Shown here piece by piece: positions 1 through 8,912 of a stretch of DNA of 8,912 bases; positions within the stretch are counted from its first letter, which is position 1; each line of letters starts with the position of its first letter. The notes under the pieces were generated by a model. The model saw only the letters and a list, made by a program, of their open reading frames with translations. It was not told the DNA's origin and did not search any database. Both the position numbers and the translations under genes were made by a program. The stretch comes from Deltaproteobacteria bacterium (GTDB lineage: Bacteria; JAUYMQ01): assembly GCA_030698575.1 (NCBI GenBank), contig JAUYMQ010000141.1:1-8912 (forward strand), read 5' to 3'.

Positions 1-1154
1 CGATGCCCGATGCGAGTCCCACGAAGTGGCACCTCGGGCACACAAGCTGGTTCTTCGAAACGTTCATTCTTGATCGCGAGCTGCCGGGCTACCGGCGTTT
101 CGATCCGCAATACGCCATCCTCTTCAATTCCTACTACAACACGGTCGGCCCCCAGCACCCCCGTCCCGAACGGGGGCTGCTCACGCGCCCGTCCCTGGAT
201 GAGGTGCGGGCCTACCGTGGCCACGTCGATCGCGCCGTCCTCGGATTTCTGGAGGGCGCTTCGACGCCCTCTCGCCCGAGCCTCGAAGTCCTGCGCATCG
301 GCCTTCACCACGAACAGCAACACCAGGAACTGCTCCTCACCGACGTGAAGCACCTCTTTTCCCGGAACCCCTTGCACCCGGCCTACCGCGAGTGTCCCGA
401 AACGCCGGCCGGCGACGTGAAGCCGGTCGGCTGGCACCACTACCCGGAGGGCCTCCAGTGGACGGGCCACACGGGCGACGGGTTTTCCTTCGACAACGAG
501 ACGCCGCGCCACCGCGTGTTCGTCGAGGCCTTCGAGATCGCATCGCGCCAGGTCACGAACGCGGAGTTCCTGGCCTTCATCGAAGCCGGCGGCTACGACC
601 GTGCGGAGCTCTGGCTGTCCGACGGCTGGACTGCGGTGAACTCCGCCCGGCTCACGGTGCCGCTCTACTGGGAGCGCCACGACGGGGCCTGGCGCACGCA
701 CACGCTCTCCGGCCTCCACACACTCCGCCTGGACGAACCGGTGTGCCACGTGAGTTATTACGAAGCCGACGCCTACGCGCGCTGGGCCGGCGCGAGGCTT
801 CCCACCGAGGCGGAGTGGGAAGTGGCGTCTCCCGGGCAGGGTGGCGGGGAAAATTTTCTCGAGGACGGGCGCTTGCACCCGGTGCCCGCGCCGCCCGCCG
901 ACGACGGCCCGGCGCAACTTCTCGGCAACCTCTGGGAATGGACGCAGAGCCCCTACGCGGCCTACCCGGGCTACGCGCCGCCCGACGGCGCGCTTGGCGA
1001 ATACAACGGCAAGTTCATGTGCAACCAGATGGTGCTCCGGGGCGGCTCATGCGCCACGCCGCGGTCGCACATCCGCGGAACCTACCGAAATTTCTTTCCG
1101 CCCGACGCCCGCTGGCAGTTCAGCGGCATCCGCCTTGCGCGGGACGCCCGCTAG
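1..1154 (+). CDS. egtB: EgtB-type ergothioneine sulfoxide synthase (5' end missing)
   Basis: Non-haem iron enzyme that in the EgtB family uses O2 to join gamma-glutamylcysteine (or cysteine) to hercynine, the central step of ergothioneine synthesis in the cytosol. Counting from the codon at position 3, an N-terminal DinB-like part carries the three iron-ligand histidines in family motifs: H13 in KWHLGHTSWFFE, and H103 and H107 in HHEQQHQE. The rest is an FGE-sulfatase/SUMF1 fold, seen as PRHRVFVEAFEIA, RLPTEAEWE, GNLWEWT and a typical C-terminus with VLRGGS and RWQFSGIRLAR. The Met at position 3 aligns with the internal MPDASPTKWH motif of family members, so the true start and about 40-60 residues lie upstream of the window. 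It ends at TAG 1152-1154. No egtD methyltransferase follows, so any egtD partner would be upstream or elsewhere. A selenoneine synthase (SenA) or OvoA-like role is possible but less likely. The family call is firm; the exact substrate is inferred. Confidence 0.92.
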   Translation, partial: MPDASPTKWHLGHTSWFFETFILDRELPGYRRFDPQYAILFNSYYNTVGPQHPRPERGLLTRPSLDEVRAYRGHVDRAVLGFLEGASTPSRPSLEVLRIGLHHEQQHQELLLTDVKHLFSRNPLHPAYRECPETPAGDVKPVGWHHYPEGLQWTGHTGDGFSFDNETPRHRVFVEAFEIASRQVTNAEFLAFIEAGGYDRAELWLSDGWTAVNSARLTVPLYWERHDGAWRTHTLSGLHTLRLDEPVCHVSYYEADAYARWAGARLPTEAEWEVASPGQGGGENFLEDGRLHPVPAPPADDGPAQLLGNLWEWTQSPYAAYPGYAPPDGALGEYNGKFMCNQMVLRGGSCATPRSHIRGTYRNFFPPDARWQFSGIRLARDAR

Positions 1155-3469: not shown

Positions 3470-4831
3470 ATGATGGAGTCCGTCAATCCGGCGACGGAGG
3501 AGCACGTCAGGACCTACGAAGAATGGTCCGGCGCCGATCTCGAGGGTGCGCTCGATGCGTCGCACCGCGCGTGGCTTTCCTGGCGGGAAACGTCTTTCGG
3601 TCACCGTGCTGACCTCATGCGCCGGGCGGGGCGCGTGCTCAGGGAGCGCCGGGCGGAGTACGCGCGGCTCGCCACCATCGAGATGGGTAAGCCCATCACG
3701 GGGGCGCTCGCCGAAGTTGAGAAGTGCGCAGAGGGGTGCGACTACTACGCCGACACGGCCGCCGCGCACCTCGCCGATGAGGTGGTCCGGAGCGCGGCGT
3801 CGAAGAGCTACGTTCGCTACGACCCCCTTGGCGTGGTTCTGGCTGTCATGCCCTGGAACTTCCCCTTCTGGCAGGTCTTCCGGTTCGCCGCGCCGGCGCT
3901 CATGGCGGGAAACGGCGGGGTGCTGAAGCACGCCTCGAACGTCACCGGCTGCGCCCTGGCCATCGAGGACGTCTTCCGGCGGGCGGGCTTCCCGGCGGAT
4001 CTGTTTCGGACGCTTCTTGTGGGCGTGGCCAGCGTGGAGGGAATCATTGCCGACGACCGCATAGCCGCGGCCACGCTCACCGGAAGCGAGCGGGCGGGCA
4101 TTGCCGTCGGATCGCAGGCGGGGAGGGCGTTGAAGCCGTCGGTTCTCGAACTCGGCGGGTCCGACCCCTTCATCGTCCTCGACGACGCCGACGTCGAAAC
4201 GGCCGCCCGGGTGGGCGCCCAGGCGCGCACGGTGAACTCGGGGCAGAGCTGCATTGCCGCCAAGCGGTTCGTCGTCGTCGAAAAGATCGCAGGCGAATTC
4301 CTGAAGCACTTCACCGCGCGCATGGCCGATCTGCGGATGGGGGATCCCCTCGACGAGAGGACCGAGATTGGCCCACAGGCTCGCCAGGACCTCCGTGACG
4401 AGCTTCACGATCAGGTAACCCGCTCGGTCACCGCCGGGGCGCGGGTGCTTCTCGGCGCCGAAATCCCGAAGGGCAAGGGGTACTTTTACCCGGCGACCGT
4501 GCTCAGCGACGTCGGGCCCGGCATGCCGGCCTACGAGGAGGAACTGTTCGGCCCGGTGGCCGCCGTCATCGTCGCCAGGGACACCGAGGACGCCCTTCGC
4601 ATTGCGAACAGCAGCCGCTTTGGCCTGGGAGCAAGCCTCTGGACCCGTGATCTTGGACAGGCCGAGCGCCTCGCGCGGCGTGTCGAGGCCGGGAGCGTGT
4701 TCGTCAACGGCCTCGTGAAGAGCGACCCGCGGCTCCCTTTCGGCGGCATCAAGAAGTCCGGCTATGGCAGGGAGCTTTCGCGCCACGGCATCCAGGCTTT
4801 CGTGAACACAAAGACCGTCTTCATCGCATGA
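3470..4831 (+). CDS. NAD(P)-dependent succinate-semialdehyde dehydrogenase (Sad/YneI-type ALDH)
   Basis: Aldehyde dehydrogenase, 453 residues, closely resembling E. coli Sad/YneI (462), which oxidises succinate semialdehyde to succinate in 4-aminobutyrate and related catabolism. Shared Sad-type stretches include IEMGKPI, MPWNFPFWQVFR, GNGGVLKHASN, LELGGSDPF, AAKRF and LRDELH. Catalytic residues are visible: N130 in MPWNFP, K153 in LKHA, E227 in LELGG and nucleophile C261 in NSGQSC. The C-terminal PFGGIKKSGYGRELS is also typical. Two tandem ATGs exist (3470 and 3473). GAGGAG at 3456-3461 sits 8 nt before the first, which I chose. A 17-bp palindrome lies immediately upstream. The stop overlaps the next start in ATGA (4828-4831), implying translational coupling. 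Substrate is inferred from family similarity; other semialdehydes or aldehydes are possible. Confidence 0.9.
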   Translation: MMESVNPATEEHVRTYEEWSGADLEGALDASHRAWLSWRETSFGHRADLMRRAGRVLRERRAEYARLATIEMGKPITGALAEVEKCAEGCDYYADTAAAHLADEVVRSAASKSYVRYDPLGVVLAVMPWNFPFWQVFRFAAPALMAGNGGVLKHASNVTGCALAIEDVFRRAGFPADLFRTLLVGVASVEGIIADDRIAAATLTGSERAGIAVGSQAGRALKPSVLELGGSDPFIVLDDADVETAARVGAQARTVNSGQSCIAAKRFVVVEKIAGEFLKHFTARMADLRMGDPLDERTEIGPQARQDLRDELHDQVTRSVTAGARVLLGAEIPKGKGYFYPATVLSDVGPGMPAYEEELFGPVAAVIVARDTEDALRIANSSRFGLGASLWTRDLGQAERLARRVEAGSVFVNGLVKSDPRLPFGGIKKSGYGRELSRHGIQAFVNTKTVFIA

Positions 4832-6405
4832 ATCAGGTATCGCTGATCCGGACCCTCGCCCGCTCGCGCGCCTTCCCCGATCGCCCGCGAAAGGTGCGGC
4901 TCGTCCAGACCCATCTCTCCTACGTGTTCCTCACTCCGACGCGCGTTTACAAGATCAAGAAATCCGTGGATCTCGGCTTCGCCGACTTCTCGACGCTTGC
5001 CCGCCGCCGCCGCTACTGCCGCGTGGAGGTCGAGGTCAACCGGCGGCTGGCGCCGCGGGTTTACCTGGGGATCGAGCCGGTGGTCCTGGTCGCGGGGCGT
5101 CCGGTCGTCGGCGGGCGGGGCAGGGCGGTGGAGTATGCGGTGGTCATGCGGCGGCTTCCCGACACAAGGCTTCTCAGCCGACGGCTCCGGCGGGGGCCTG
5201 GCGACTATCCCCTCGTCGCGCGCGTGGCCGAGCGTCTGGCCCGCTTTTACGGCCAGGTGAAGCTCGGGCCCGGCGATCGGGACACGGGTGCGGGGCCGCT
5301 GGCCCGCGTGGTGCGCGACAACTTCAGGGTGCTGGAAAAATTCTCCGGAGACCTGTTCGACGCGGAGGCGCTTGCAGCGCTCAAGGGGTGGAGTGAGCAT
5401 GAGCTTGCAGCGATGCGACGGCGCATCGAGCAGCGCGCGCGCGAGGGACGATCGGTCGAAGGCCATGGAGATCTCCACCTCGCGCATATTTATGTGAACA
5501 ACGAGATCGAGATTCTCGACGGGACGGAGTTCTCTCGCCGTTTCCGGGCCGGGGACTACGCCAAAGATGTAGCCTTTCTGGCGATGGATCTGGAGGCCCG
5601 CGATCGCCATGATCTTTCACGCCATCTCGTTCGGATCCTGGCGAGGCGGCTCCGCGATCCGGATCTCCCGCGGCTTCTTCCGTTCTACAAGGCCTACCGG
5701 GCGCTTGTCCGGGCGAAGGTGAACGCGCTGCTGACAGGGGAGCGCGAAGTGCCCATCGAGGCGCGGCGGGCCGGGGCAAGAGGAGCGCGGCGCTATTTCA
5801 AACTGGCTGAGCGCATCACGCGCTGGCGCGGCGCGCCCGCGCTCATCGTGATGGGGGGGCTCACGGGCGTTGGGAAGACGGCCCTGGCCCTGGACGTCGC
5901 CAGGCGCTACGGCGTGGAGTGGGTCGCCACGGACGTGGCGCGGAAGCTTCTTGCGGGGCTGGATCCTTTCCTGTCCGCCCGCGCCGGAATCGGGCGCGGG
6001 CTCTACTCCCCCGCGCATCGCCGGGCCACCCTGCGGGCCGTGCTGCGCGAGGCTCGCTCGCTCCTGCGCTCCGGGCGGCCCGTCATTCTCGATGGGACGT
6101 TCCAGCGCCGCGAGGATCGAGCGGCGGTTCGCCGCCTCGCCCGGCGCGAGTGCGCTGAGATCAGGTTTCTCTGGTGCGAGGCGCCCCTCGATGTGGTCCG
6201 ACGCCGGTTCAGAAAGCGCGCCGAAGGGCCGTCCTTCTCCGATGCCGATTGGAAGGTCTACCTTGCGATGCGCAAGAGGCAGGAGCCTCCCGTCGAAATA
6301 CCGCTGTCCGAGATCACCTTTCTTGACACAACCTGCGCAAGCCCCGTCCTCTGGAGGCGCATTGACGCGCTGCTTGCTCCACTCGCTTCGCCTCCTTCCC
6401 GCTGA
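4828..6405 (+). CDS. Fused APH-like kinase / P-loop AAA kinase (COG2187-COG0645 type)
   Basis: A 525-residue two-domain protein. The N-terminal part (about 1-320) is an aminoglycoside-phosphotransferase-like kinase domain. It has the lysine-containing VYKIKKSVDLGF and the catalytic-loop motif GHGDLHLAHI (212-221, with D215), then the ILDGTEF segment with candidate metal-binding D231, and CxEFN-like context ending in AFLAMDLE. The C-terminal part (about 335-520) is a P-loop kinase with Walker A GLTGVGKT (344-351, K350), then TDVARKLL and VILDGTFQRREDR, typical of the zeta-toxin/gluconate-kinase-like COG0645 group. This fusion is widespread and often annotated 'bifunctional aminoglycoside phosphotransferase/ATP-binding protein', but its real substrate is not established. 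Family members usually have Cys after the Asp of the ILD segment; here it is Gly. ATGA overlap with the dehydrogenase shows the two are made together. It is not good evidence for antibiotic resistance. Confidence 0.85.
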   Translation: MNQVSLIRTLARSRAFPDRPRKVRLVQTHLSYVFLTPTRVYKIKKSVDLGFADFSTLARRRRYCRVEVEVNRRLAPRVYLGIEPVVLVAGRPVVGGRGRAVEYAVVMRRLPDTRLLSRRLRRGPGDYPLVARVAERLARFYGQVKLGPGDRDTGAGPLARVVRDNFRVLEKFSGDLFDAEALAALKGWSEHELAAMRRRIEQRAREGRSVEGHGDLHLAHIYVNNEIEILDGTEFSRRFRAGDYAKDVAFLAMDLEARDRHDLSRHLVRILARRLRDPDLPRLLPFYKAYRALVRAKVNALLTGEREVPIEARRAGARGARRYFKLAERITRWRGAPALIVMGGLTGVGKTALALDVARRYGVEWVATDVARKLLAGLDPFLSARAGIGRGLYSPAHRRATLRAVLREARSLLRSGRPVILDGTFQRREDRAAVRRLARRECAEIRFLWCEAPLDVVRRRFRKRAEGPSFSDADWKVYLAMRKRQEPPVEIPLSEITFLDTTCASPVLWRRIDALLAPLASPPSR

Positions 6406-6410
6406 AAGCT

Positions 6411-6447
6411 CACATCTGTTGCAAAACTTGCACTGTTCCCAGATGTG
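6411..6447 (+). repeat. 8-bp inverted repeat bracketing a candidate enhancer site
   Basis: CACATCTG (6411-6418) is repeated exactly in reverse complement as CAGATGTG (6440-6447), with 21 bp between. It starts five bases after the upstream kinase stop. The spacer contains the palindrome TGCAA-AAC-TTGCA. There is no T-run after the right arm, so it is not a standard terminator; it could be part of the upstream control region of the regulator gene. Confidence 0.4.
6420..6432 (+). promoter_or_regulatory. Candidate upstream activator site 1 for the NtrC-type regulator
   Basis: TGCAA-AAC-TTGCA is a perfect 5-3-5 palindrome centred about 159 bp before the predicted start of the sigma-54 transcript at about 6585. 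The same architecture, CGCAA-CTT-TTGCG, occurs at 8131-8143 upstream of the second sigma-54 promoter. Dyad-symmetric sites 80-160 bp upstream are what Fis-type HTH activators of this family bind. Assignment to this regulator is inferred. Confidence 0.5.
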
Positions 6448-6448
6448 G

Positions 6449-6461
6449 TGCAAAGTCTGCT
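6449..6461 (+). promoter_or_regulatory. Degenerate second activator half-site
   Basis: TGCAA-AGT-CTGCT keeps the left arm of the palindrome exactly and three of five bases of the right arm. It lies 29 bp after the left arm of the site at 6420, close to three helical turns, so two dimers could bind on nearly the same face of the DNA. It is supported only by similarity and spacing. Confidence 0.3.
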
Positions 6462-6558
6462 TAAAGGCGGAATGGACTCCCTGAGACGCCGAGTCCGTCG
6501 CCTTAAAAATGCCACTGATTTCAATTGGTTCCCCAAGGAGAGGGAGACCCGCGGGGTG

Positions 6559-6574
6559 TGGCATGATGCTTGCT
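6559..6574 (+). promoter_or_regulatory. Sigma-54 promoter of the response-regulator gene
   Basis: TGGCAT-GATGC-TTGCT matches the -24/-12 consensus TGGCAC-N5-TTGC(A/T) at every position but one, with the invariant GG (6560-6561) and GC (6572-6573) at correct spacing. RNA is expected to start near 6585, giving a leader of about 91 nt before the ATG at 6676. Because the promoter lies inside any longer reading frame from 6445, it also supports the shorter start for the regulator. Confidence 0.8.
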
Positions 6575-6599
6575 CTATTCTTGCCAGACCATCGGCTAT

Positions 6600-6675: not shown

Positions 6676-8064
6676 ATGAGCAAAACGCAGCCGGACAAGC
6701 GGGGACGAATTCTCGTGGTGGACGACGAGAAGGGCGCCCGCGAGGCGCTCGCCGACATTCTGACCGAGGACGGCTATCAGGTATCCGTGGCGGCTGATGG
6801 CGTGGAGGGTTTTGAGCGGGTGCAGGCGGACGCGCCAGACGTGGTGATCTCCGATTTCAAGATGCCCAGGCTCGACGGAATCAATCTGCTCCGGAAATCT
6901 CTCACCATCGATCCCGATCTCAAATTCGTTCTGATGACGGCTTTTGGCACGATCAAGACCGCCGTGGAGGCAATGAAGCTCGGAGCCGAGGACTACCTCG
7001 TAAAGCCGGTCAACCTGGAGGAGGTACAGATCGTCATCGCGCGATGCCTGAAGGGGCGCCGCCTCGTCGAGGAGGCTCGGGGTCTGCGCGAACGTCTGGA
7101 TGAGAAGTACCGCTTCGACAACATCGTCGGTAACAGCCCGCAGATGCAGCTCGTTTTCAAGACCGTCGAACAGATCGCCCCGAGCAGGTCCAATGTTTTA
7201 ATCACCGGTGAGAGCGGAACGGGAAAGGAGCTGATCGCGCAGGCGATCCATCAGCACAGCCCGCGGAAAGACAAGGCCTTCGTGGTCCTGAATTGCGCGA
7301 GCCTCACCGAAACCCTGCTCGAAAGCGAGTTGTTCGGCCACGAGAAGGGATCCTTCACGGGTGCGACCGGCCGCCGCCGGGGCCGCCTGGAGCAGGCGGA
7401 TGGGGGGACCCTGTTCCTCGACGAGGTCGGCGAGGTGCCGCAGTCCACTCAGGTGAAGCTGCTCCGCTTCCTCCAGTCGAGGGAGATCGAACGGGTTGGC
7501 GGCAACGAGGTTCTGAAGCTGGACGTGCGGGTGGTAACGGCGACCCACCGTGACCTGAAACAGCTCATCGAAAGCGAGACTTTCCGCGAAGATCTCTTCT
7601 ATCGTCTGAATGTCATCGAGATAGGCCTTCCGCCGCTTCGCGAACGAAAGGGGGATATCCCCGCGCTCTCCGATTTCTTCATCCGGCGATACGCCGCCGA
7701 AAACCGGAAGCAGATAACGGGGATCGAGGAGGCCGCCCTTCAGGATCTTATTCGCTACGACTGGCCGGGCAACATTCGCGAGCTCGAAAACATCATCGAG
7801 CGCGCCGTGGTGCTCGCCGGTGGTAAGCGAATCACGCAGGACAACCTGCCTGAGCTTGCCGTCGAACCGGGCAAGGCGGCCAACCGCTTTCAGTTCACGG
7901 CCGGCGTGACGCTGGGCGAAGCCGAGCGGGAGATCATCCTCCGCACTCTCGACGCCGTCGGCGGACACGTTCCGAGAGCCGCCGAGCTCCTTGGCATTTC
8001 ACCCCGCAAGATCTACTACCGGCTCAAGGAGTACGGCCACGAGGCCCGGTCGAAAGCCTCCTGA
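6676..8064 (+). CDS. Sigma-54-dependent NtrC-family response regulator
   Basis: A 462-residue two-component activator that, when phosphorylated, should hydrolyse ATP to open sigma-54 promoters. The receiver domain (about 11-125) has D16/D17, phospho-acceptor D60 in ISDFKMP, T88 in MTAFG and K110 in LVKP, so all switch residues are present. The AAA+ domain (about 135-375) has Walker A GESGTGKE (178-185), the sigma-54-contact loop GSFTGA (225-230, a variant of GAFTGA) and Walker B TLFLDEVGE (D249, E250). FREDLFYRLNV and DWPGNIRELENIIERA also match the family. The C-terminal Fis-type HTH (about 425-455) includes RAAELLGISPRKIYYRLKEYG. The start at 6676 is chosen over an upstream GTG at 6445 because it has a purine-rich AGGTGGGGG ribosome-binding site, starts right before a normal receiver and follows the sigma-54 promoter. 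No sensor kinase is adjacent, so its input is unknown. Confidence 0.95.
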   Translation: MSKTQPDKRGRILVVDDEKGAREALADILTEDGYQVSVAADGVEGFERVQADAPDVVISDFKMPRLDGINLLRKSLTIDPDLKFVLMTAFGTIKTAVEAMKLGAEDYLVKPVNLEEVQIVIARCLKGRRLVEEARGLRERLDEKYRFDNIVGNSPQMQLVFKTVEQIAPSRSNVLITGESGTGKELIAQAIHQHSPRKDKAFVVLNCASLTETLLESELFGHEKGSFTGATGRRRGRLEQADGGTLFLDEVGEVPQSTQVKLLRFLQSREIERVGGNEVLKLDVRVVTATHRDLKQLIESETFREDLFYRLNVIEIGLPPLRERKGDIPALSDFFIRRYAAENRKQITGIEEAALQDLIRYDWPGNIRELENIIERAVVLAGGKRITQDNLPELAVEPGKAANRFQFTAGVTLGEAEREIILRTLDAVGGHVPRAAELLGISPRKIYYRLKEYGHEARSKAS

Positions 8065-8130
8065 GGTCCCGGGCGCGAGTCGACGTTCCCCCTCAAGCTG
8101 CAGTGAAGAACGACACTGTCTTTCGCATGA

Positions 8131-8143
8131 CGCAACTTTTGCG
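8131..8143 (+). promoter_or_regulatory. Candidate upstream activator site for the CBS operon
   Basis: CGCAA-CTT-TTGCG is a perfect 5-3-5 palindrome centred about 118 bp before the predicted RNA start near 8255. Its pattern matches TGCAA-AAC-TTGCA at 6420-6432. A lone TTGCA half-site (8171-8175) lies about three helical turns downstream. CACTGT precedes the CGCAA arm by 17 bp here (8114-8119), and CACTGT (6431-6436) precedes the TGCAA arm at 6449 by 18 bp. Binding by the adjacent regulator is inferred. Confidence 0.5.
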
Positions 8144-8228
8144 CCGTTTCGGGAGTGATAAGCCTGGAAGTTGCAGGGTGTGCGCGATTCGGGCGTGTTC
8201 ACTCCGGAATTCGAGGGAAAAACCTTTC

Positions 8229-8244
8229 TGGCACGCGAGTTGCA
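8229..8244 (+). promoter_or_regulatory. Exact-consensus sigma-54 promoter of the CBS-domain operon
   Basis: TGGCAC-GCGAG-TTGCA is identical to the sigma-54 consensus TGGCAC-N5-TTGCA, with GG at 8230-8231 and GC at 8242-8243 in correct register. RNA should start near 8255, giving a leader of about 67 nt before the ATG at 8322. It lies in a 257-bp gap that has no convincing gene. Such a full match by chance is very unlikely in so short a region. Confidence 0.92.
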
Positions 8245-8321
8245 AACACCACGCTAAGGAAGGGAACGCGGGATTCCAGTCAGCCTGAACCGGCGGGCAA
8301 ACTGGCTGCAGGGAGTTCAAG

Positions 8322-8816
8322 ATGAACAAAGCGGATGCAAAGCCTCAGACGCTGCCGCGCGGAACGGGAGGCTCCGGTTTCTCCCCGAGCGGGAGCGTGC
8401 TCGGGATCATGCAGACTCCGGTGTGGACACTGCAGGCCAGCGATCCGTTGACGAAGGCGATCAACCTGCTTGGTTCGGAGAAGGCGCGCCAGTCCCCGGT
8501 CCTGAAGGGGGATGAATTGATTGGTGTTCTCTGCAGCTGCCATCTCTCCGAGCTTCTCGCCGCCTCCCTCCGCGAGCTTGCCAATGGCAAGGGGCTTGGT
8601 GAGTTAAACCGCGTCCGCATCGAGGAGGTAGTCGCGGGAGGCGCCGTCTCGATTGGTCCCTATCATTCGATCGTGGCGGCCGCACAGGTCTTGCTCGAGC
8701 GGCGGTCCTGCGCGCTCCCTGTCGTTGACCAACGGCGGGTCGTGGGCCTGGTCACCCAGGGCGATTTGCTCCGGGCGCTCATCGATCGGGTGAAGGAGCT
8801 GGAGGCACGCCTATGA
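8322..8816 (+). CDS. Two-CBS-domain protein under sigma-54 control
   Basis: A 164-residue soluble protein, essentially a stand-alone CBS pair (Bateman module), which in other proteins binds adenine nucleotides or related ligands and acts as an energy or second-messenger sensor. After a Gly/Pro/Ser-rich, probably flexible N-terminus (1-25), CBS1 spans about 27-82 (IMQTPVWTLQASDPL to LIGVLCSCHLSELL) and is the more divergent. CBS2 spans about 98-155 and is typical: SIVAAAQVLLERRSCALPVVDQRRVVGLVTQGDLLRAL. No membrane segment or catalytic domain is attached, so it probably acts through a partner. The ATG has AGGGAG at 8310-8315 with 6-nt spacing and follows an exact sigma-54 promoter. Its stop overlaps the next start (ATGA, 8813-8816). 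Ligand and partner are unknown. Confidence 0.88.
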   Translation: MNKADAKPQTLPRGTGGSGFSPSGSVLGIMQTPVWTLQASDPLTKAINLLGSEKARQSPVLKGDELIGVLCSCHLSELLAASLRELANGKGLGELNRVRIEEVVAGGAVSIGPYHSIVAAAQVLLERRSCALPVVDQRRVVGLVTQGDLLRALIDRVKELEARL

Positions 8817-8912
8817 CTACAAAGAACGCCCAGGGAAAGAACCGAAGCAGAAACGAGGAGCCGATGGATGCTGAAATCAACGAAAACAAGATCGTGAACG
8901 ATATCATCGAAA
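8813..8912 (+). CDS. Unidentified gene translationally coupled to the CBS gene (3' end missing)
   Basis: Only 33 codons are visible, open to the window end. The ATG at 8813 overlaps the CBS stop and has GGAGG at 8801-8805 with 7-nt spacing, a strong signal for coupled translation. An in-frame ATG at 8864 is an alternative start but has GAGGAG only 3 nt away. The first 17 residues are polar and Lys/Asn/Arg-rich, likely disordered; then comes MDAEINENKIVNDIIE, which looks like the start of a helix. The 100 visible bases contain only 45 G/C, clearly below the neighbouring genes. I do not recognise the family. As an operon partner it is a candidate for the protein that the CBS module regulates. 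Confidence 0.7.
   Translation, partial: MTTKNAQGKNRSRNEEPMDAEINENKIVNDIIE

Follow-up and report, generated by a model that had tools for sequence, protein, structure and literature searches.

The window, by which we mean the whole stretch of DNA analysed here (8,912 nucleotides, one entire contig), very probably carries, judging from its sequence, a new and phylogenetically distant example of the recently described NmpR system, in an unrelated lineage. A gene for an NtrC-type response regulator is followed there by a gene for a stand-alone CBS-domain protein, and each is preceded by a predicted sigma-54 promoter and a pair of enhancer palindromes. In all likelihood the regulator drives the sigma-54 promoter of the adjacent CBS operon, and it probably also drives its own gene from 6559-6574, in an autoregulatory fashion. 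The features on which this reading is built are the following, the enhancer sites being compared with GCGCA-N5-TGCGC.

4828..6405, + strand: kinase-like protein (AAA_33 ATPase), preceding the regulator gene
6419..6433, + strand: predicted enhancer site 1 of the regulator promoter, TTGCA-AAACT-TGCAC, 7/10
6448..6462, + strand: predicted enhancer site 2 of the regulator promoter, GTGCA-AAGTC-TGCTT, 7/10
6559..6574, + strand: second predicted sigma-54 promoter, TGGCAT-GATGC-TTGCT, upstream of the regulator gene
6676..8064, + strand: NmpR-like NtrC-type response regulator, with receiver, sigma-54 AAA+ activator domain with GSFTGA loop, and Fis-type helix-turn-helix
8130..8144, + strand: predicted enhancer site 1 of the CBS promoter, ACGCA-ACTTT-TGCGC, 9/10, centre about -118
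8171..8185, + strand: predicted enhancer site 2 of the CBS promoter, TTGCA-GGGTG-TGCGC, 8/10, centre about -77
8229..8244, + strand: predicted sigma-54 (-24/-12) promoter of the CBS gene, TGGCAC-GCGAG-TTGCA (TGGCACGCGAGTTGCA)
8322..8816, + strand: stand-alone tandem CBS (Bateman) protein of 164 aa, with ATG start and GGGAG Shine-Dalgarno
8813..8912, + strand: start of the next gene, in ATGA overlap with the CBS stop; 33 codons, then the contig end

The original prediction had placed an exact TGGCAC-N5-TTGCA box about 78 bp ahead of the CBS start and downstream of an NtrC-type activator gene, and this is indeed what we find: the string is present on the + strand at 8229-8244, GG at 8230-8231 and GC at 8242-8243 give the correct -24/-12 spacing, 77 bp separate the end of the box from the CBS ATG (8322), and the activator gene is that at 6676-8064. 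The predicted transcription start lies near 8254-8255. In Markov-1 random windows the exact consensus is expected 0.001 times per window, against one observed, and the looser TGGCAY-N5-TTGCW 0.008 times, against two observed; none of 1000 such windows contained two. The second box, at 6559-6574, had been overlooked together with the enhancer palindromes of both promoters, and a further candidate at 6599 was discarded as it is without the GC doublet.

The wider genome (4.13 Mb in 653 contigs, 91.6% complete) encodes a single copy of rpoN and about 20 sigma-54 activator domains, and contains 30 sites of the form TGGCAY-N5-TTGCW, versus 3 for the reversed pattern. Approximately 27 of the 30 are intergenic according to a simple coding-potential gene caller, and the genes behind consensus sites include an ammonium transporter, two pilins, pilM, a FliA-like sigma factor, lpxC, an Flp pilin and other NtrC-type regulators. 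Considering that sites genome-wide are mostly intergenic and that many stand before typical sigma-54 targets, an intergenic site of such quality is very likely a promoter; with its doublets at -24/-12, a gene downstream and a host that possesses RpoN, 8229-8244 is almost certainly one.

Elsewhere in this genome, four genes for SpvB/Tc-like large proteins (L032, L040, L044 and L056) have an exact sigma-54 consensus 79-247 bp upstream, and the contig of one of them (C312) also carries a partial sigma-54 activator; these genes could possibly form a sigma-54-controlled family. Two tandem pilin genes (L038 and L039, contig C253) lie downstream of a gene for an NtrC-type regulator, and each has a sigma-54 site to itself, in what looks like a PilR/PilA type of arrangement.

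Both promoters of the window carry a pair of predicted enhancer palindromes. Ahead of the CBS promoter the sites begin 41 bp apart, leaving a gap of 26 bp, and ahead of the regulator promoter they begin 29 bp apart, with a gap of 14 bp; the GCA-N5-TGC core is present in all four. In Myxococcus xanthus, NmpR binds GCGCA-N5-TGCGC, usually as two sites 14-15 bp apart, or 24 bp before nmpU, and the same core is intact in every bound site (PMC11841059). Paired palindromes of this type, at comparable distances and upstream of sigma-54 promoters, are found in the window also. The form of our pattern was arrived at after seeing the window, an initial palindrome (GCAAAASTTGC) having been dropped as too narrow and replaced by the general form GCA-N5-TGC; the published NmpR consensus is independent of the window. 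When the two intergenic regions were shuffled 2000 times, a palindrome common to both appeared in 37 cases, so that the shared palindrome taken alone is modest evidence, and CGCA-N5-TGCG is expected by chance once in every 2-3 windows. Since YGCAA-N3-TTGCR is not enriched genome-wide (19 sites versus 18 for the control), only palindromes tied to sigma-54 promoters count. For GCAAAANNTGC, 20 sites occur in the genome, and a consensus sigma-54 box lies downstream of only the two in the window (6420-6432 and 8131-8143).

Loci of the regulator's relatives offer a further perspective on these sites. CGCA-N5-TGCG occurs 87 times in them, 44 times upstream of regulator, CBS, universal stress or globin-kinase genes, versus 22 occurrences (3 upstream of those genes) for an N4 spacer and 23 (1 upstream) for N6. 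We built a site matrix from these 44 upstream sites, window data excluded, and scanned it over the window and 97,978 positions of the window's own genome. Its top match in the window is 8131-8143, at 19.9 bits, with the runner-up at 10.3 and a background maximum of 13.8 bits in the 97,978 positions; third and fourth place go to the sites at 6449 and 8172, and ninth place to that at 6420, all within the two intergenic regions. Most pairs in other loci (20) have a spacing of 29-31 bp, and 3 more are 40-41 bp apart; the window has one of each kind, at 29 and 41. In a genome with some 20 activators, it is the enhancer sites that provide the real evidence for the link between this regulator and the CBS gene.

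The regulator itself contains the phospho-acceptor Asp of its receiver (in SDF), a GAFTGA-type loop in the form GSFTGA, and a Fis-type helix-turn-helix. Its domain architecture is common to the AtoC, NtrC and ZraR response regulators, and among NCBIfam models it is matched best by AtoC, PEP-CTERM response regulator, ZraR and NtrC; all of these scores fall well below the curated cut-offs (497.7 versus 714 for AtoC), and so we assign it to none of these named types. Across 386 diverse genomes the best matches, at 53-58% identity, stand apart from most others (45-52%), and 40 of the 282 genomes in the phylum of the best match, which looks like the myxobacterial one, have a match at 52-58%. Short peptides of the regulator searched against genome contigs gave six matches, all of them non-orthologous. 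The tree places the window regulator outside a 42-row NmpR-like clade, as its sister (97/74 at the fork, and 97/85 for the clade without the window regulator), and together they fall inside a 100/100 group of 46, whose other branch consists of L108, L109 and L111. The recognition helix is nearly identical between window (PRKIYYRLKEY) and clade (VRKIQYRLKEY).

Among the loci of the NmpR-like regulators, 23 contain globin-coupled histidine kinases, 17 contain CBS genes and more than 20 contain universal stress genes, and in two of them (L198 and L199) globin kinase, regulator and CBS gene follow one another consecutively. Sigma-54 sites stand directly before regulator, CBS, universal stress or globin-kinase genes 20 times in other loci, and the reversed control does so 0 times. 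Close homologues of the AAA_33 protein that precedes the window regulator are found beside universal stress genes in four NmpR-like loci (L107, L163, L166 and L170), with a palindrome 68-87 bp upstream in three of the four. In L193, L195 and L197, an NmpR-like regulator and globin kinase lie beside copper-ATPase, CcoS-like and HemN-like genes, neighbours which fit the oxygen-utilization regulon described for M. xanthus.

For the CBS protein, Pfam scores the second repeat only, and alignments to the solved tandem-CBS proteins MJ1225 and AcuB cover both repeats, making it a tandem CBS protein; the T-x-x-D nucleotide-site sequence is typical only in the second (VGLVTQGD). Its family suggests that it may act by binding adenine nucleotides. 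A structure model made without alignment was discarded (mean pLDDT 39). We found no relative among GTDB genome contigs and, in 98 diverse genomes, weak matches only (20-45% identity) with no strong sigma-54 box ahead of them, so that CBS orthology is not traceable by sequence. At the other end of the window (3-1154) lies EgtB, for ergothioneine biosynthesis; its model match begins at position 29, and its start is probably truncated by the contig end.

Taken as a circuit, these elements could work as follows. The phosphorylated regulator would assemble on the enhancer pair at 8130-8144 and 8171-8185, about 70-125 bp before the transcription start, and its AAA+ domain would open sigma-54 polymerase at 8229-8244, allowing transcription of the CBS operon. 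Bound at 6419-6433 and 6448-6462, it would drive its own gene as well, from 6559-6574, and so close a positive loop; this binding and activation at both promoters is what we infer from the sites and the kinship. The signal could be low oxygen or an associated fall in energy state, and the CBS protein could sense that energy state via adenine nucleotides. Such a circuit would be that of M. xanthus NmpR, which acts on mxan_4236 and on itself through GCGCA-N5-TGCGC and sigma-54 under low oxygen. There, the CBS gene mxan_4236 heads its own operon, is activated by NmpR through sigma-54 and is induced under hypoxia in an NmpR-dependent manner, with EMSA and lacZ support (PMC11841059). It had been proposed in the original prediction that the neighbouring regulator controls the CBS operon, and that the CBS protein, with an unknown partner, is an output of two-component signalling. 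The former is strengthened by the paired NmpR-type palindromes at both promoters, the sister position of the regulator and the experiments on M. xanthus NmpR, and the latter is likewise favoured by the site pairs, the regulator's kinship and the NmpR-driven CBS gene of M. xanthus (PMC11841059). The proposed partner would be encoded by the ORF from 8813, of which the contig contains 33 codons.

Where the circuit takes its input from is a more delicate matter. The window holds no cognate kinase for the regulator, and of the globin-coupled kinase NmpU and its relay NmpS/NmpT, which would make this a full NmpRSTU system, no counterpart lies in the window, nor was a protoglobin domain found in the 91.6%-complete genome. 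As a consequence, oxygen as the signal is something that we infer, and we regard the chances that the input is oxygen or energy state as evenly balanced. Perhaps the wiring is NmpR-like and the input is not oxygen, the sensor kinase having been exchanged as in L108, L109 and L111, where the regulator is in an operon with a kinase bearing a periplasmic solute-binding domain. Only the input would set this apart from the reading above, and we consider it quite possible, if somewhat short of probable. The missing protoglobin speaks for such an exchange, as do those three neighbourhoods and the placement of the window regulator in the tree between the branch with solute-binding kinases and that with globin kinases. 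On the other hand, a globin kinase may simply be missing from an assembly of this completeness and in 653 contigs, the contig stops just downstream of CBS, and the enhancers and CBS target match the globin branch and not L108, L109 and L111, where no NmpR-type palindrome was found near the regulator. We tentatively raise the idea that NmpR-type enhancer, promoter and CBS wiring has been kept outside the described lineages, with the globin kinase replaced by a different sensor.

Could the promoter be real, and yet answer to another of the roughly 20 activators, whilst the adjacent regulator controls something else? Several bacterial NtrC-type regulators act solely at distant promoters, and this, along with the sheer number of activator domains, gives the idea some footing. 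However, like pairs of sites precede both the regulator's own promoter and that of CBS, they are of the type bound by the regulator's relatives, and the other regulators of this genome that we examined have recognition helices different from that of the window regulator; we therefore judge control by another activator to be unlikely. That the box is a chance intergenic match, with CBS transcribed from a sigma-70-type promoter or by read-through, is most improbable given its rarity in random windows, the excess of such sites genome-wide and the enhancer sites at the right distance.

If control by the adjacent regulator holds, the implications reach beyond this contig. To our knowledge, experimental knowledge of the NmpR circuit comes from M. 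xanthus only, and we know of no target genes of AfGcHK-type oxygen sensors outside M. xanthus. The circuit would now extend to a lineage whose phylum is represented by this one genome in the collection that we compared. Next to globin-coupled kinases, many genomes show the NmpR-type site again, with its pairing and helical spacing, and AfGcHK-type sensors thereby gain a predicted and directly testable regulon of CBS, universal stress and AAA_33 kinase genes.

Among known systems, the AfGcHK locus of Anaeromyxobacter sp. Fw109-5 (PDB 5ohe) is matched by L110, which has a homologue of AfGcHK (229 bits), an NmpR-like regulator, CBS and universal stress genes; a kinase of this type was not found in the window's genome. 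In M. xanthus, the globin kinase NmpU acts on NmpR via NmpS, and for other bacteria synteny of the NmpRSTU system with a CBS gene had already been pointed out (PMC6211767). Unlike in M. xanthus, the window regulator has its own promoter and is followed by CBS with a second promoter, genes like NmpS, NmpT or NmpU are absent from the window, no protoglobin gene was detected in the genome, the regulator belongs to a sister lineage, and the sites drift from the consensus (9, 8, 7 and 7 of 10). Nonetheless, much is held in common with NmpR and mxan_4236: an NtrC-type regulator, a sigma-54 promoter, paired enhancer sites whose gaps of 14 and about 26 bp resemble the 14-15 bp and 24 bp (upstream of nmpU) of M. 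xanthus, a CBS-domain target gene, assigned here by promoter sequence, and, as predicted for the window, autoregulation.
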